Both the position numbers and the translations under genes were made by a program. A DNA stretch of 64,000 nt. Source: Tolypothrix bouteillei VB521301. GTDB lineage: Bacteria; Cyanobacteriota; Cyanobacteriia; Cyanobacteriales; Nostocaceae. The DNA is taken from NCBI RefSeq assembly GCF_000760695.4, contig NZ_JHEG04000001.1:1396717-1460716 (forward strand), given 5' to 3'. The notes below the pieces were generated by a model. The model ran no database searches and was not told where the DNA came from. It saw nothing but the letters and a program-made list of their open reading frames with translations. Below are positions 30,440 to 38,803 of the stretch, piece after piece (the first letter of the stretch is position 1; each line of letters opens with the position of its first letter).

Positions 30440-31336
30440 TTATTCTTCAAAGAAAATGTTTTCGCTGCTGGGGTGCAGTTTCCCAGTGGGTTCGTCAATG
30501 AAGACGCCATCACACCAGGTAACATGGCACTTGAAACTAGGTTCTTCACCAGAAGCGCCAAAATTAGCGCCTTGGAAATTGGAACAAACATAATTAGCAC
30601 AGGTAGAATCGATCCCAACCCCATTCATTCCACGGAAGTCGCAATAAATCAGCATAATGCTTTCAAAGTTGCAAATATCCATGTTGGCATCCCGAAAATC
30701 ACAATAGATGAATTTGGTCATCAAAAAATTAGAAGCACGGAATTTGACATTGCTAAAGTTGACGTAGCTCAAGCTCGCGCCGCTCAAGTCAATGGACTGG
30801 AGGTCAACGCCGCTCAAGTCACCACGATGCAAAACGATACTTCTAAAGTTTCGCTCCCCATCTGCATAACGCCTGAGCAATTCTCTTGTGGTAATAATTC
30901 TGGTGTCACTATTTTCAATACTGCCATCAGGCATAATGGTATTACAAAAAATAGTCCTTTCGTTGACTTGAATATTAGCCAAGTTGGCATCAGTCAAGTT
31001 TGCACCGCTCAAGTTAGCACCGCTCAAGTTGGCATCGCTCAAGTTGGCACCAGTCAAATTAGCACGATCCAAATTAGCACTTCGGAGATTGGTATTGCTC
31101 AAGTTGGTGTTAATAAAAAGAGTATTGGTAAAGTGAGATCTTTCCAAATTAGCACTCCTCAAGTTAGTATTCATCAAACCACCGCTCTCGATGTAAACTC
31201 CGCCCAAATCGACGTTGCTCAGGTTGACACCAATCAACCAAGGTGGTCTGACAAAGAAAGCTCCCAAATTAATTCTCCTAAAATCTCTTTCCCCTGCAGC
31301 ATATCGTTGCAACAACTCCTCAGCAGTTATAGTCAT
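30440..31336 (-). CDS. Pentapeptide-repeat protein with two repeat units
   Basis: The 298-residue protein contains two successive units. Unit one (about 1-140) starts EELLQRYAAGERDFRRINLG, holds pentapeptides such as SANLDRANLTGANLSDANLS and ends FCNTIMPDGSIENSD. Unit two starts again with RELLRRYADGERNFRSI and becomes irregular (FIYCDFRDAN, CDFRGMN). Each unit mirrors the single-unit paralogues at 9.2 and 31.7 kb, implying duplication and fusion. A strong ribosome site, GGAGG at 31344-31348, precedes ATG 31336, which supports this strand. The plus strand is also open but has no comparable start. Function unknown. Confidence 0.8.
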   Translation of the reverse strand: MTITAEELLQRYAAGERDFRRINLGAFFVRPPWLIGVNLSNVDLGGVYIESGGLMNTNLRSANLERSHFTNTLFINTNLSNTNLRSANLDRANLTGANLSDANLSGANLSGANLTDANLANIQVNERTIFCNTIMPDGSIENSDTRIITTRELLRRYADGERNFRSIVLHRGDLSGVDLQSIDLSGASLSYVNFSNVKFRASNFLMTKFIYCDFRDANMDICNFESIMLIYCDFRGMNGVGIDSTCANYVCSNFQGANFGASGEEPSFKCHVTWCDGVFIDEPTGKLHPSSENIFFEE

Positions 31337-31733: not shown

Positions 31734-32453
31734 CTAGAGGTTATTGCTAACCATTCCCCCGTCTGGCATAATGGTATTGAAAAGAATGCAACTATCAACA
31801 TCAGCATCCCAAGCACCAGTCAAATCCGCATTAGTCAAATCAACTTGTTCAAAGACAGCGCAGTCCAACATAGCATTGCTCAAGTTAACACCTCTCCAAT
31901 TAGCGTCTTTCACGTAGGTAGAATACAGGTCAGCACCGCTGAGGTTGGCATCACCGAAATCAGTACGCAACAATAGAGCAGAATCCAAACCAGAATTTCT
32001 CAAGTTGGCCCTACTGAATTTGGCATCTCTCATCTTGCAATACCTCAAATTGGCATCTTCCAGGATAGCATCACAGAAGCTAGCTTCAGTCAGATCGGCA
32101 CCCCCCAAATCGGAACCCCTCAAATTGGTGCGAATAAGCTTGGCACGAATCAAGTCAGTATTAATCAGGTTTGCACGACTCAAGTCAGCACCGCTCAAGT
32201 CGGCACAACTCAGTTTGGCATCAATCAGATCGGCACCGCTCAAGTTAGCACCACTAAAATTGATGCCAACCAAACGGCTTCGGCGCAGTTTACTTTGACT
32301 GAGATTAATTCCATTCAAATCGGTGGCACCCATCGGGTTTTCGTACTTATCCCAGACAGCCCCACTCAAATCAGCCTCACTCAAATCAACCCCACTAAAA
32401 TCTCTCTCCCCGATAGCATATTGCTGCAACAACTGCTCAACAGTTATCCTCAT
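31734..32453 (-). CDS. Pentapeptide-repeat protein
   Basis: The 239-residue protein starts EQLLQQYAIGERDFSGVDLS, has about 35 A(D/N)LXX units (GANLSGADLIDAKLSCADLS, GADLTEASFCDAI) and closes LFNTIMPDGGMVSNNL. It is a beta-helix scaffold of unknown role. GGGAGG at 32461-32466 precedes ATG 32453. The leader (TTGATTAACC...TATATAG) is similar to that of the paralogue at 31336, so regulation is probably shared. Here the opposite strand is broken by a frame change near 31973, while this strand stays intact. That argues the minus strand is the functional one at all three loci. Confidence 0.82.
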   Translation of the reverse strand: MRITVEQLLQQYAIGERDFSGVDLSEADLSGAVWDKYENPMGATDLNGINLSQSKLRRSRLVGINFSGANLSGADLIDAKLSCADLSGADLSRANLINTDLIRAKLIRTNLRGSDLGGADLTEASFCDAILEDANLRYCKMRDAKFSRANLRNSGLDSALLLRTDFGDANLSGADLYSTYVKDANWRGVNLSNAMLDCAVFEQVDLTNADLTGAWDADVDSCILFNTIMPDGGMVSNNL

Positions 32454-34086: not shown

Positions 34087-34896
34087 ATGGAGATGATGAC
34101 CACTATATCTTCTGAAAATCAGTTAAACTCAAGCTGTTCGAGTGCTTGTATCTGGGAGTTATTATACGCAGAACAAGCACGGCAGTTGCGGGGAAAAATT
34201 GCTGTGGATGAACAACTGCAAAATCTAATTCATGAGGTTTGCCGTCATGCAGATTTAAGTGCGGAACGGCAAAAAGCTCTCAATCGGCTGCTCGTACAAC
34301 TACAGCAACTACCCGGTATCTATAAGTCTGTTCACCAAGATTATCCTCAGGCTTTAAATGATACTTGGCAATGGGTTGGTCGCAGCATCTGTGATTTTCA
34401 ACCACGCCGGAGTTCCGTACAACAAAGCTTGGTCAGTTGGATTAATGGCTACCTGAAGTGGAGAATTGTAGATTTGTACGCTAAGGACAATCAATATGTT
34501 ACCAGTTTAGATAAACCAATACGGAATGATGATGGAGACCAAATAGCTCTGCTCGATTTCTTGCCCGATCCACAATTTACAAGCCTTTCTTTAGACTTAT
34601 TAGATATTAAAATTCTTCAACTGCAAGAAGGGGAACGCCAGGATCTCGGTCAAAAAATAAAGGCACAAATTATACAAGATACCCAAGGGACGCTCTGTGC
34701 AAGTCATCCGCGAAAGCACCCAGAATGTCACTGTCAGTTATTGGCAAAGCGTTTGCTATTGCAGGAACCTCCTGAAAAAATTTCTGACATTGCCAGAGAG
34801 TTTGATATAAACAACCAAACCCTTTATTCACACTGGAAGCAAAAATGCCTTCCTTTATTAGCAGAGCTTGGACGAAATTGCGGGTATAAACCATGA
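34087..34896 (+). CDS. Sigma-70-like factor of the DUF1822/CHAT operon
   Basis: The protein has about 270 residues. The middle QSLVSWINGYLKWRIVDLYA followed by SLDKPIRNDDGD resembles sigma region 2 to linker. The end PPEKISDIAREFDINNQTLY-SHWKQKCLPLL looks like a region-4 helix-turn-helix. It belongs to a divergent group of sigma-like proteins encoded in front of DUF1822 and CHAT genes in cyanobacteria. The start is uncertain: ATG 34087, 34093 or 34096 are all possible, and TTG 34024 is in frame behind a GGAGGAG run. ATGA overlap with the next gene implies translational coupling. Confidence 0.7.
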   Translation: MEMMTTISSENQLNSSCSSACIWELLYAEQARQLRGKIAVDEQLQNLIHEVCRHADLSAERQKALNRLLVQLQQLPGIYKSVHQDYPQALNDTWQWVGRSICDFQPRRSSVQQSLVSWINGYLKWRIVDLYAKDNQYVTSLDKPIRNDDGDQIALLDFLPDPQFTSLSLDLLDIKILQLQEGERQDLGQKIKAQIIQDTQGTLCASHPRKHPECHCQLLAKRLLLQEPPEKISDIAREFDINNQTLYSHWKQKCLPLLAELGRNCGYKP

Positions 34897-35828
34897 CTAG
34901 CGTAGAATTAGAACCGATTGGTGTTCCTCTGGGTAAAGATGCTCATCGTTGGGCTGAGATGTTTGCCTCAGAACAAGCGACACCCCAAAAAGGCAAACAA
35001 GTCTATCTCAATACTTTAGCTGTGTGTGCCGTTCACAGTTATTTAAAATGGTTGATGGTGGAAACCGACCTTACCAGTGGTGACAGTTGGGAACCGGGTT
35101 TGCGGGCAATTTTTAATGTTGCGGATTTAGTTGTCCCCAATGTAGGAACATTGGAATGTCGTCCGGTGCTACCTGGTGAGATTGCTTTTGAGTTACCAAT
35201 GGAGGTCACTGAAAATAGAATTGGTTATGTGGCAGTTCAATTTAGCGATCGCCTGGATTCCGTACAATTACTGGGATTTGCTCGTGCCACAACTGCTGAT
35301 GAATCTCTTGAAACTGTACAACTGTCTCAGCTACAGCCTTTAGAGGCTCTCATCGAGACTATTTTCCCCGTTCATAGCAACGAAGTTGTCAGTTCTAGAA
35401 TGAAATCAGAACAGTTTTTCGTTAACTTGCGTCAGTGGTTTGAGGGAATTTTTAACCAAGACTGGCAGCCTGCTGAATTGGCGCTTGCGGGTAATTTTAG
35501 GCACATGACTCCTGCAACCAATTTTGTAAGTCGGGTAAAAGAAATTTATTTGGTCGATCGCCCATTACGCCTTGTCGTACAAGTGACACCTCAAGAGACT
35601 GACTCAGTTGATATTCGCTTGCGTCTTTACCCAGGGAAGAATGGAAATTATTTGCCGGAAAATTTACAGCTTGTTTTGTTTGATGAAGTAGGAAGTGCTT
35701 GTATGGAAGCACAATCTAAAAAAACTGACAGTTGGATGGAATTGGAGTTTAGTTGCCAACAAAACGAAATGTTTAGTGTCAAAGTGGTGTTAGAAGGGAC
35801 AAGTTTGACTGAAAAGTTTATTGTCTGA
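34893..35828 (+). CDS. DUF1822 family protein
   Basis: The 311-residue soluble protein matches DUF1822: LGKDAHRWAEMFASEQATPQ, VYLNTLAVCAVHSYLKWLMV, CRPVLPGEIAFELPMEVTEN, RIGYVAVQFSDRL and FNQDWQPAELALAGNFR. The family is almost confined to cyanobacteria and its function is unknown. Its start overlaps the sigma-like gene by four bases and it ends 23 bases before the CHAT gene. It is therefore the middle member of a tight three-gene operon and a candidate partner or substrate of the protease. Confidence 0.85.
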   Translation: MTSVELEPIGVPLGKDAHRWAEMFASEQATPQKGKQVYLNTLAVCAVHSYLKWLMVETDLTSGDSWEPGLRAIFNVADLVVPNVGTLECRPVLPGEIAFELPMEVTENRIGYVAVQFSDRLDSVQLLGFARATTADESLETVQLSQLQPLEALIETIFPVHSNEVVSSRMKSEQFFVNLRQWFEGIFNQDWQPAELALAGNFRHMTPATNFVSRVKEIYLVDRPLRLVVQVTPQETDSVDIRLRLYPGKNGNYLPENLQLVLFDEVGSACMEAQSKKTDSWMELEFSCQQNEMFSVKVVLEGTSLTEKFIV

Positions 35829-35851
35829 GCATCAAATAACAGGTTACCTGT

Positions 35852-38029
35852 ATGGGCATTGTCAAGATTAAAATCAGGCGAACATCAGAAGAGGGATTTC
35901 TAGTTATTCTGACAGCAACAAATCGTGAATATGAAACGGAGGGCTTTCTTTTACCACTTCCACCAGAATTAGAAACTTCTTTTACTCAATGGCAATCTGC
36001 TTATCGTCAAATTGAAGATGTAAGGTCTTGCATTGCTCCCGCACCGGGTTTGCGTTTAACACCAAAGAGCGTGATAGTTCATTCCAACTTGGAACACACC
36101 CAAGCGCTGAAGACTAACCTGAATGAGTGGTTGAACTCGGGAGATAGTAAATGGCAGCCGATTCGGGATGGCTTGATTGCGATCGCCCAACAATTGCATT
36201 CCTCAGGTGAAGAAATTCGTGTCATTTTGGATGCAAAAGATATTAACTTGCGGCGTCTCCCTTGGCAAGAGTGGAGTTTATTTGAGCAACACTATCCTCA
36301 AGCGGAAATTGCCTTAAGTGCGCCTAAAACAACAGACCACAAGAGCGTTGCATGTCCCAACAGTTCAAAAGTTAGAATTTTAGTGGCTGTGGGGAGAAGT
36401 GACGGGATTAATACTAAGGACGACATAGAAGTTGTTCGCCGATTGGAGGAACTTGGAGCTGAAGTTGTCTGTTTGATGCAACCGAATCTCAAAAATTTGT
36501 GTGAAGCCCTTTGGGACGAACAGGGCTATCACATCTTCATTTTCACCGGACACAGTGGGAGTCGAAAGGATGGGCAAATTGGTTGGATAGAAGTTAATGA
36601 CCGAGAAAGTTTAAGTATTGAGGAATTTAAGGAAGCATTAAAAGAAGCGATCGCCAAAGGATTGCAATTAGCAATTTTCAACTCCTGCGATGGTTTGGGC
36701 TTAGCCAACCAACTTGCTGAGTTACATTTGCCACAAAGCGTTGTGATGCGGGAACCCGTCCCCGATCCCGTGGCTGTGGAATTTTTGAAACACTTTTTCT
36801 ACGAGTTTACTCGCAATAAATCTTTATTTGCTTCGGTCTTGAAAGCCCGCAAACGTTTGGAACATTTTAAGTCCCGTTATCCCGGTGCTATTTGGTTACC
36901 CACAATTTGCATTGCGTCTAATGTCGAACCTTTGACTTGGGTCGGGTTGAGCGGAAATTCTCCTAAACCCCCAACTTCAAAGCTAACCACTGCTAAATTC
37001 GAGCGCCCATATGTCCCAATTTTTAAAAGTCAAAAAGCCGCTTTATGGGCTGGGGTGATGGGATTGTGTCTTGGTTGTGCGCTCGTCGCAATTCCCGCGA
37101 CTATTGTTCTCAACCAGCGATCCGAATCAGCACAACAGCTCGAACAAACCACCATCAAATCGCTCTCGGTTCCAGTTGGAACTTGGCTGTATGGTGGAAG
37201 TACAACTTGGGCACCCATTCGTGGTTTGGTAGATAAGAAAATTAAACAGGAATTACCCGAATTTAACTTGACTTACACTCAACATCCTACTTTACCACCC
37301 GGTTCGGGAACTGGTATCAAGATGTTATTAGATGGTCAAATTTCTTTTGCTCAGTCTTCCAGACCGATTCTAGATAAAGAATATGAACTGGCGGCTGCGA
37401 GGGGTGTGAAACTCAAACAAGTTCCTGTGGCAATTGATGCGATCGCGATCGCAGTTCACCCCAGTTTAAAGATTGAAGGTTTAACTGTAGAACAACTCAA
37501 AGGAATTTATACGGGTAAGATAACTAACTGGAGTCAGATAGGTGGTCCCGATTTAAAAATAACACCATTATCTCGCCCATTAAACAGCGGAACAAGTGAA
37601 TTTTTTAAAGAAAATATTTTAGAAAACCAAGTGTTTGGTTCAAATATTGTCTTTATTCCCACAACCACTCAAGCACTGAACAAAGTGGGTAATTTTCCAG
37701 AAGAAGGAGCTATTTATTATGCTTCAGCTTCTGAAATTATCAAGCAGTGTACTGTGAAAACTTTACCCGTCAGCCGTCATAGAGGAAGTGCTTTAATTTC
37801 TCCGGAAATAATAAGTTCTCAACCAGGAGAGAAGTGTCAGAGACAACACAATAAGCTCAACCTTGAGGTTTTGCAAAATGGGGAATATCCATTGACGCGA
37901 CGCCTTTTTGTCATTATTAAACAAAACGGTCAAGTCGATGAACAAGCCGGAGAAGCTTACGCGAGTTTATTGTTAACAAGAGAAGGGCAAAACTTAACCG
38001 AGAAAGCTGAGTTTATTCCCATGAGATAA
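35852..38029 (+). CDS. CHAT protease - transmembrane helix - phosphate-binding-like domain fusion
   Basis: A 725-residue protein in three parts. Residues 1-165 are an N-terminal region of unknown fold. A CHAT (caspase-like) domain at about 170-365 has the catalytic pair His234 in FIFTGHSGS and Cys279 in AIFNSCDGLGLA. A single hydrophobic helix lies at about 397-420, followed by a PstS-like solute-binding domain at about 440-725 (PVGTWLYGGSTTWAPIRGLV, LPPGSGTGIKMLLDGQISFA, SSRPILDKEY, LSRPLNSGTSEFFKENIL). Topology puts the protease inside the cell and the binding domain outside. No permease is nearby, so ligand binding probably regulates proteolysis. Third gene of the operon. Confidence 0.85.
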   Translation: MGIVKIKIRRTSEEGFLVILTATNREYETEGFLLPLPPELETSFTQWQSAYRQIEDVRSCIAPAPGLRLTPKSVIVHSNLEHTQALKTNLNEWLNSGDSKWQPIRDGLIAIAQQLHSSGEEIRVILDAKDINLRRLPWQEWSLFEQHYPQAEIALSAPKTTDHKSVACPNSSKVRILVAVGRSDGINTKDDIEVVRRLEELGAEVVCLMQPNLKNLCEALWDEQGYHIFIFTGHSGSRKDGQIGWIEVNDRESLSIEEFKEALKEAIAKGLQLAIFNSCDGLGLANQLAELHLPQSVVMREPVPDPVAVEFLKHFFYEFTRNKSLFASVLKARKRLEHFKSRYPGAIWLPTICIASNVEPLTWVGLSGNSPKPPTSKLTTAKFERPYVPIFKSQKAALWAGVMGLCLGCALVAIPATIVLNQRSESAQQLEQTTIKSLSVPVGTWLYGGSTTWAPIRGLVDKKIKQELPEFNLTYTQHPTLPPGSGTGIKMLLDGQISFAQSSRPILDKEYELAAARGVKLKQVPVAIDAIAIAVHPSLKIEGLTVEQLKGIYTGKITNWSQIGGPDLKITPLSRPLNSGTSEFFKENILENQVFGSNIVFIPTTTQALNKVGNFPEEGAIYYASASEIIKQCTVKTLPVSRHRGSALISPEIISSQPGEKCQRQHNKLNLEVLQNGEYPLTRRLFVIIKQNGQVDEQAGEAYASLLLTREGQNLTEKAEFIPMR

Positions 38030-38121
38030 TCTGTACAAGTCTTTACGGTGATAGAATTTTCCACCATACATATAGTTCAAAGATCGAATAAAATTGCTAT
38101 AGAGGTTTAAATTTGTGTAAA

Positions 38122-38803
38122 ATGACAGCAACAATTGCTATACCCATCAGCCAGATAGAGTTAGCACCTGGTAGCGCTATCAAGATTGATAGAGTGACTT
38201 GGGAAAATTACATCACACTCTTAAAGGAACTTGGAGATAATCGCCCGACACGTATTGCTTATGATAATGGAGTATTAGAAATTAGAATGCCCGGTCAATT
38301 GCATGAAGCAGCTAACCGAGTTCTTGCTGCGTTCGCGAAGCGCAAGCCGTACCCGGCTTATCGCTCTTACATTAGCAGAAGAATTCGGTTTTGATTTTAA
38401 CGATCTGGGATCTATGACCATGAATCGACAAAACTTAGCAAGGGGTATTGAACCCGATAGTTGTTTTTACATTCAAAATGCTCGAGCAGGACAAGGGCTT
38501 AATGAAGCTATTCCTGACGACTTCCCACCAGATCTTGCTTTAGAGGTTGATATTGCCAACAAGTCAGATAGTAAGCTAAGCATTTATCAAGCAATGTTAG
38601 TTCCTGAAGTGTGGCTTTATCAACAAGAAACCATCAAAATCAAACAACTGCGAGAAGGGAAGTACATTGATTCACCTACTAGTCGGGCATTTCCTTTAAT
38701 TAGTGCAGAACAGTTGAATCAGTGGCTGCAGTTAAGAAGAACTGGGACGGATTTATCTGTTGTAAGGGCTGTCAGGCAGTTTTGCCGGGAAGAAAGAGCT
38801 TGA
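38122..38803 (+). pseudogene. Uma2-family (DUF820) endonuclease, split by a 28-bp insertion
   Basis: The first part reads TATIAIPISQIELAPGSAIK and THE TYPICAL IRMPGQLHEAANRVLAA; after a frame change the second part reads LTLAEEFGFDFNDLGSMTMN, GIEPDSCFYIQNARAGQG and PPDLALEVDIANKSDSKLSI. Together they form a normal Uma2 protein of about 215 residues with the PD-(D/E)XK acidic residues. Removing bases 38332-38359 joins LAA to IALTLAEE in frame and rebuilds a GCGATCGC site. As it stands translation stops at 38394. Uma2 proteins are putative nucleases, very numerous in cyanobacteria. Confidence 0.85.
38332..38359. mobile_element. 28-bp double-palindrome insertion inside a HIP1 octamer
   Basis: The inserted sequence is TTCGCGAA (self-complementary), GCGC, then AAGCCG-TACC-CGGCTT (six-base stem). 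It lies between GCG and ATCGC of what must have been GCGATCGC. The boundaries are deduced because excision restores both the octamer and the Uma2 reading frame. Its small size and hairpin structure resemble the short interspersed repeats of filamentous cyanobacteria. No target duplication is needed to explain it. Confidence 0.7.

Follow-up and report, generated by a model that had tools for sequence, protein, structure and literature searches.

A tightly packed sigma-like/DUF1822/CHAT-PstS-like operon of Tolypothrix bouteillei as a candidate transmembrane signalling unit

Can a single cyanobacterial operon connect an external ligand to a sigma factor? This question is raised by three genes in a stretch of 64,000 nucleotides of Tolypothrix bouteillei VB521301 (contig NZ_JHEG04000001.1, positions 1,396,717 to 1,460,716), in the following called the window. 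In the list of open reading frames (ORFs), a sigma-like gene, a DUF1822 gene, and a gene for a fusion of a CHAT domain, a membrane helix and a PstS-like domain follow each other tightly packed on the + strand. An earlier reading of the DNA, hereafter the original prediction, regarded them as an undescribed system in which a ligand-controlled protease could release the sigma factor by cutting DUF1822. The modular anatomy proposed there was confirmed, and comparative sequence data support the three genes as one unit with conserved linkage. The attribute "undescribed", however, had to be given up, as neighbourhoods of EACC2 caspases, extracytoplasmic function (ECF) sigma factors and DUF1822 are contained in section 9 of Kaur et al. 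2021 (eLife, PMC8195603).

With regard to the mechanism, we see about even chances that the operon forms a transmembrane signalling unit in which CHAT, gated by a ligand, cuts a DUF1822 anti-sigma factor; the mechanism of the original prediction is reasonable but unproven. The DUF1822 protein, constantly paired with a sigma factor, would keep the latter inactive, while the fusion would serve as a receptor-protease which, by predicted topology, crosses the membrane with one helix between an external PstS-like domain and a cytoplasmic CHAT domain. Binding or loss of an external ligand would switch the protease, which would cut or otherwise inactivate DUF1822, and the freed sigma factor would then drive transcription of its target genes, perhaps including its own operon.

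The first support for such a unit comes from gene neighbourhoods. We fetched 120 DUF1822 neighbourhoods in score order among the matches listed and dropped some lower places by hand, which leaves weak and long DUF1822 proteins under-represented; gene calling used a simple longest-ORF script. The counted set comprised 122 DUF1822 genes of at least 250 amino acids (aa), including the window and excluding 14 targeted loci. A sigma gene of one of three types (window type, large second type, third type) was located at most three same-strand genes upstream in 109 of the 122 cases, immediately upstream in 104, and an EACC2-type CHAT gene at most two genes downstream in 76. Missing linkage in homologues, which the original prediction would have taken as a refutation, was therefore not observed. 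A sigma gene without EACC2-type CHAT was found 43 times, CHAT without sigma 10 times, and neither three times. Since 43 of the 109 sigma-DUF1822 pairs do without EACC2-type CHAT, DUF1822 appears to go with sigma first, and this retention of sigma with or without a protease is the main argument for DUF1822 as a sigma regulator. Within two genes downstream of the 46 DUF1822 genes without EACC2-CHAT, four TPR-CHAT and three trypsin-like proteases were detected (Pfam: L068, L150). Pairwise distances of sigma, DUF1822 and CHAT correlate (r 0.874, 0.868 and 0.845; 51 triples), as co-inheritance alone would give.

Several neighbourhoods deviate from the usual layout. In L142, L147 and L150, a trypsin-like protease replaces CHAT after sigma-DUF1822 (Trypsin_2 with TPR repeats in L150). 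A gene of about 900-970 aa precedes DUF1822 in L099, L115, L095, L100 and L101 (TPR-CHAT where scanned, in L100), with a sigma gene ahead of it in L099 and L115. At L024:5648-7488, a sigma-like start is directly followed by the C-terminal part of CHAT-PstS, with DUF1822 and the CHAT N-terminus missing, which from the sequence looks like decay or misassembly.

The domain identities and placements given in the original prediction for DUF1822, CHAT and the PstS-like domain were corroborated by Pfam. The fusion (725 aa; 35852..38029, + strand) consists of an N-terminal module of about residues 1-366 with the CHAT domain (PF12770, 1.4e-8, 34.9 bits versus a cut-off of 24), a predicted membrane helix at 402-420, and PBP_like_2 at 445-710 (PF12849, 1.3e-35, 123.9 bits versus 27). 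A profile begun from residues 1-372 picks up 99 proteins in the fetched loci, and a 26-row alignment of this constant module has a mean column identity of 49%. According to the precomputed annotation, 119 of the best 120 of 3545 homologues contain both CHAT and PBP_like_2. His234 and Cys279, predicted as the catalytic residues, are present in all 121 rows formed by the window protein and these 120 homologues. Of 87 aligned CHAT modules of the neighbourhoods, all that have a residue at the respective position carry His234 (85 of 85) and Cys279 (84 of 84); the gaps stem from the fragments L137 and L160, to which L087 adds one at the Cys. A dyad lost in close orthologues, which the original prediction had named as an argument against itself, was thus not found, and the CHAT module is a putative peptidase. 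In a sequence-profile comparison with solved CHAT structures, only three weak, unrelated rows were obtained. The single membrane helix predicted at 397-420 encloses the hydrophobic segment 402-420, and 119 of the 121 rows have such a segment between the two domains (19-residue mean of at least 1.6). Because the CHAT side of this segment is the more positive one in 102 of 121 rows, CHAT is predicted to be inside and the PstS-like domain outside.

That other operons swap the binding domain, a possibility raised by the original prediction, became apparent from the C-termini of the 87 CHAT proteins, which cluster as CHASE2 (41 plus 3 divergent), PstS (12), Peripla_BP_6 (10), WD40/STAND (8), TPR (5), HEAT (2), N-terminal membrane/pentapeptide (2) and fragments (4). 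Each cluster was labelled by scanning one or two of its members with Pfam, and targeted loci inflate the PstS count of 12, to which the unselected set contributes only 2 (window and L161). In a tree of 85 constant modules, the sensor labels need 18 changes (minimum 8, shuffled mean 41.8); with 15 of the 82 internal branches left open, the number of exchanges is better founded than any single one of them. The PstS cassettes group on one branch (100/100) beside two long-branched CHASE2 rows (97/80), and cassettes with other sensors retain the same gene layout. At the level of sequence, sensors have been exchanged between cassettes around a constant CHAT module. In L026, two CHAT-type genes stand in a row behind one sigma-DUF1822 pair, and L016:51-3299 has a PstS-like ORF ahead of a full CHAT-PstS gene; from these two layouts, several receptors may serve one sigma factor. 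Signalling could also proceed without proteolysis, with the CHAT fold as a conformational relay or the dyad used for another reaction, and in the open-licence literature searched we found no report of proteolysis for the EACC2-type CHAT family. An invariant His and Cys across very different sensor types would be unusual for a pure scaffold, however, and we regard this explanation as highly improbable.

The reading frame of the sigma-like gene ends at 34896; the start at 34087 (269 aa) given in the original prediction is probably too early. The probable start is GTG 34204, which gives a protein of 230 aa (34204..34896, + strand); this assignment is likely, not certain. The position is shared by 14 of the 21 homologue rows shown, is preceded by a GGGGAAAA run, and coincides with the first start codon that follows the upstream stop in 11 of 11 PstS-type orthologues compared (L017 by coordinates); an upstream open extension is present in some closer homologues. 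The predicted model has a helical region-2-like part, a flexible linker and a C-terminal helix-turn-helix; two stretches of low confidence, 133-141 and 163-166 (269-aa numbering), are probably flexible. Domains of regions 2 and 4, as required for an ECF-type sigma-70 factor, were recognised, and the window protein passed no curated sigma model (NCBIfam SigF, 17.7 bits versus a cut-off of 261). TIGR02937 was matched by 14 of 53 neighbourhood sigmas (best 5.2e-12). The sigma-type partner postulated originally is hence accepted through the relatives of the window protein and, more weakly, its predicted fold.

Profiles of the second and third sigma types were built from upstream genes of the same fetched loci. 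One common sigma family for all cassettes was discarded, as window type and second type are only weakly related (profile comparison 28% and 63%). The third type is clearly related to the second (98.5%) and was accepted as sigma because of this tie; the second-type member L061 matched Sigma70_r4 (8.2e-8) and TIGR02937 (7.6e-31). In L059-L092, a second-type sigma (about 385-450 aa) regularly has a DUF1822 protein of about 380-410 aa behind it, often without a protease being found, and in L060-L062 and L073 a small protein comes after this pair (DUF4870 in L061).

The DUF1822 gene (34893..35828, + strand; 311 aa) overlaps the sigma-like gene by 4 bases and is separated from the fusion gene by 23 bases, both as predicted. 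Its product matches PF08852 with E=2e-66 (225 bits versus a cut-off of 25), a family whose function is listed as unknown in Pfam. The family was matched in 168 of the 244 Cyanobacteriota genomes sampled, in 158 of them above its cut-off, and many genomes have several copies. The predicted model (76 rows; predicted local distance difference test 80, predicted template modelling score 0.57) is bipartite, with an N-terminal alpha/beta domain, a variable linker with low-confidence stretches, and a C-terminal Ig-like beta-sandwich. Over 132 proteins, the stretch equivalent to that from residue 146 to residue 209 of the window protein is 52 to 192 residues long, and despite this variation W182 is kept in 98% and W191 in 100%. 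The segment around both residues is present in all cassette contexts, with or without CHAT, which ruled it out as a CHAT-specific cleavage motif; it may instead bind a constant partner, for which sigma is the obvious candidate. Kinship between DUF1822 and the constant N-terminal module of the CHAT proteins was rejected (hhalign probability 0.2-1.4%).

Two results weigh against proteolysis of DUF1822 by CHAT: a CHAT-specific cleavage motif was sought in the DUF1822 linker and none was found, and in 39 of the 46 DUF1822 genes without EACC2-CHAT two rough profiles detected no protease at most two genes downstream. The latter would also be understandable if DUF1822 acted positively on sigma, as an adaptor or co-factor, and the CHAT receptor, for instance a protease of stress or cell death in a shared operon, were directed at other targets. 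This possibility gains from the 39 places with CHAT matches in this genome and from a DUF1822 model lacking an anti-sigma signature; it loses by the CHAT gene repeatedly lying behind DUF1822 and by the correlated divergence of the three genes, and on balance appears unlikely to us.

Proteolysis of a DUF1822 anti-sigma factor by CHAT has an experimental precedent outside this family: in type III-E CRISPR, the CHAT protease Csx29 cuts the sigma inhibitor Csx30, as shown by Strecker et al. 2022 (PMC10028731). As described there, this Craspase/CASP system (Cas7-11, the TPR-CHAT protein Csx29, Csx30, CASP-sigma) likewise combines a ligand-switched CHAT protease, a sigma inhibitor and a co-encoded ECF-like sigma; unlike the window operon it responds to an RNA target and not to an external ligand, is a soluble complex, and is CRISPR-linked. 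PDB searches with the DUF1822 profile and model gave no Csx30 among the matches listed and hence no sign of a relation between the two. Alternatively, CHAT might cut itself, freeing a cytoplasmic CHAT fragment, or cut a sigma factor that is inactive until cut, with DUF1822 only as a scaffold. Activation as an autopeptidase was proposed by Kaur et al. 2021, and both the linker without a CHAT-specific motif and the probably flexible stretches of the sigma model would fit. The sigma-DUF1822 pairs persisting without EACC2-CHAT nevertheless point to DUF1822 as the sigma regulator, and Craspase cuts the inhibitor, so that we assign a low probability to self- or sigma-cutting.

RseA/DegS-type regulation, too, couples a signal from outside to the proteolysis of an anti-sigma factor. 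There, the anti-sigma factor and the proteases are separate membrane proteins, unlike the window operon with receptor and protease in one protein. Anti-sigma proteolysis of this type is named in PMC10028731. HetF, which acts in heterocyst development and cell division, is likewise a cyanobacterial CHAT protein and putative protease according to PMC8406250, and the window fusion remains far below the HetF model NF045509 (14.4 bits versus a cut-off of 1200). Fusions of caspase-like proteases with sensors, including an external binding domain, were already noted in 2010 in passages of PMC2853523, where cyanobacterial metacaspases (peptidase C14) are joined to CHASE2, WD40, HEAT, pentapeptide or ANF-receptor/periplasmic-binding domains; these were annotated as metacaspase and not CHAT, and the passages contain no sigma/DUF1822 context.

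Closest are the caspase-like EACC2 proteins of Kaur et al. 2021, which have a constant N-terminal module with a caspase-like domain and a highly variable C-terminus including extracellular and small-molecule-binding domains, and which adjoin ECF sigma and DUF1822 genes. Both these neighbours and the variability of the C-terminus were recovered here, and the operon is a member of this previously described class. DUF1822 is called a TPR protein in PMC8195603, and the model predicted here does not resemble one. By the terms searched, the main text names neither a PstS-type fusion nor an anti-sigma factor, and figures or source data may draw such a fusion; in the open-licence literature searched, we found no experiment on a family member and no anti-sigma proposal for DUF1822. 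New in this study are the quantified linkage, the sensor exchange, the PstS version as one branch, the DUF1822-sigma pairing even without CHAT, the bipartite non-TPR model of DUF1822 with two near-invariant tryptophans, and the possible self-regulated promoter. Tentatively, and with somewhat less than even probability, we propose that DUF1822 founds a class of cyanobacterial cytoplasmic anti-sigma factors, each paired with a sigma factor and in many cassettes under the control of a swappable receptor-protease made of one protein, CHAT in most cases and sometimes trypsin-like, which in the present operon would be PstS-gated so that nutrient status drives proteolytic sigma release and self-activation of the operon. 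Should DUF1822 prove to be an anti-sigma factor that receptor-proteases release, a considerable share of the cyanobacterial signalling still without explanation would become accessible to tests, and the logic of the CRISPR Craspase would be one case of a wider CHAT/anti-sigma/sigma design. The PstS cassette lends itself to such tests, since the class of its candidate ligand can easily be varied.

A phosphate-like oxyanion is a plausible ligand of the sensor. By sequence, its best solved match is Sll0540 (9L8J, E=7.5e-22), a Synechocystis locus name, and the next matches are mostly phosphate-binding proteins. Motif residues shared with phosphate-binding proteins are S450 and S503 (121 of 121 rows), R504 and G580 (120) and T581 (114); the equivalent residues contact phosphate in PstS, and their conservation is suggestive only. 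The fusion might even be an accessory protein of phosphate uptake with incidental linkage to sigma and DUF1822, given this best match and homologues named phosphate-binding proteins by several sources. The whole protein, though passing PF12849, scores below the PstS subfamily model TIGR02136 (142.5 bits versus a cut-off of 206.6), the best Pho-box-like site upstream of the operon does not stand out from shuffled sequences (66 of 500 equally good), and cassettes with other sensors share the layout, which leaves this explanation with next to no probability.

A two-box element, TCAGTTAAAC-N18-TGTATC (34119..34152, + strand), starts 85 bases upstream of the GTG, is conserved among close orthologues and is a candidate sigma-dependent promoter. 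The pattern TCAG[GT]TA[AG]A[AC] precedes the sigma gene without mismatch at 16 of the 42 loci compared, or at 15 of 41 distinct places, since L161 and L181 coincide. Four of these loci are orthologues with a sigma identity of only 56-57%; the pattern is absent from more distant orthologues. Exactly 18 bases further, [CT]GTATC follows in 6 of the 16 (window, L024, L182-L185) and variants in the remainder. The exact two-box site exists once in the genome, at the operon itself. No regulon emerged from genome-wide matches with at most two mismatches (66 sites versus 73 for the reversed pattern), and the shorter one-box pattern gave 67 sites versus 41. A sigma-dependent promoter of its own operon, with possible self-regulation, is plausible from these patterns.

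No PADLOC match to defence systems was obtained at E <= 0.1. Downstream of the operon, at 38113-38803, two ORFs overlap in different frames; as the second corresponds to the C-terminal part of Uma2 (PF05685), a frameshift may have broken this Uma2-like gene. Two pentapeptide-repeat proteins are encoded nearby on the - strand at 30440-31336 and 31734-32453.

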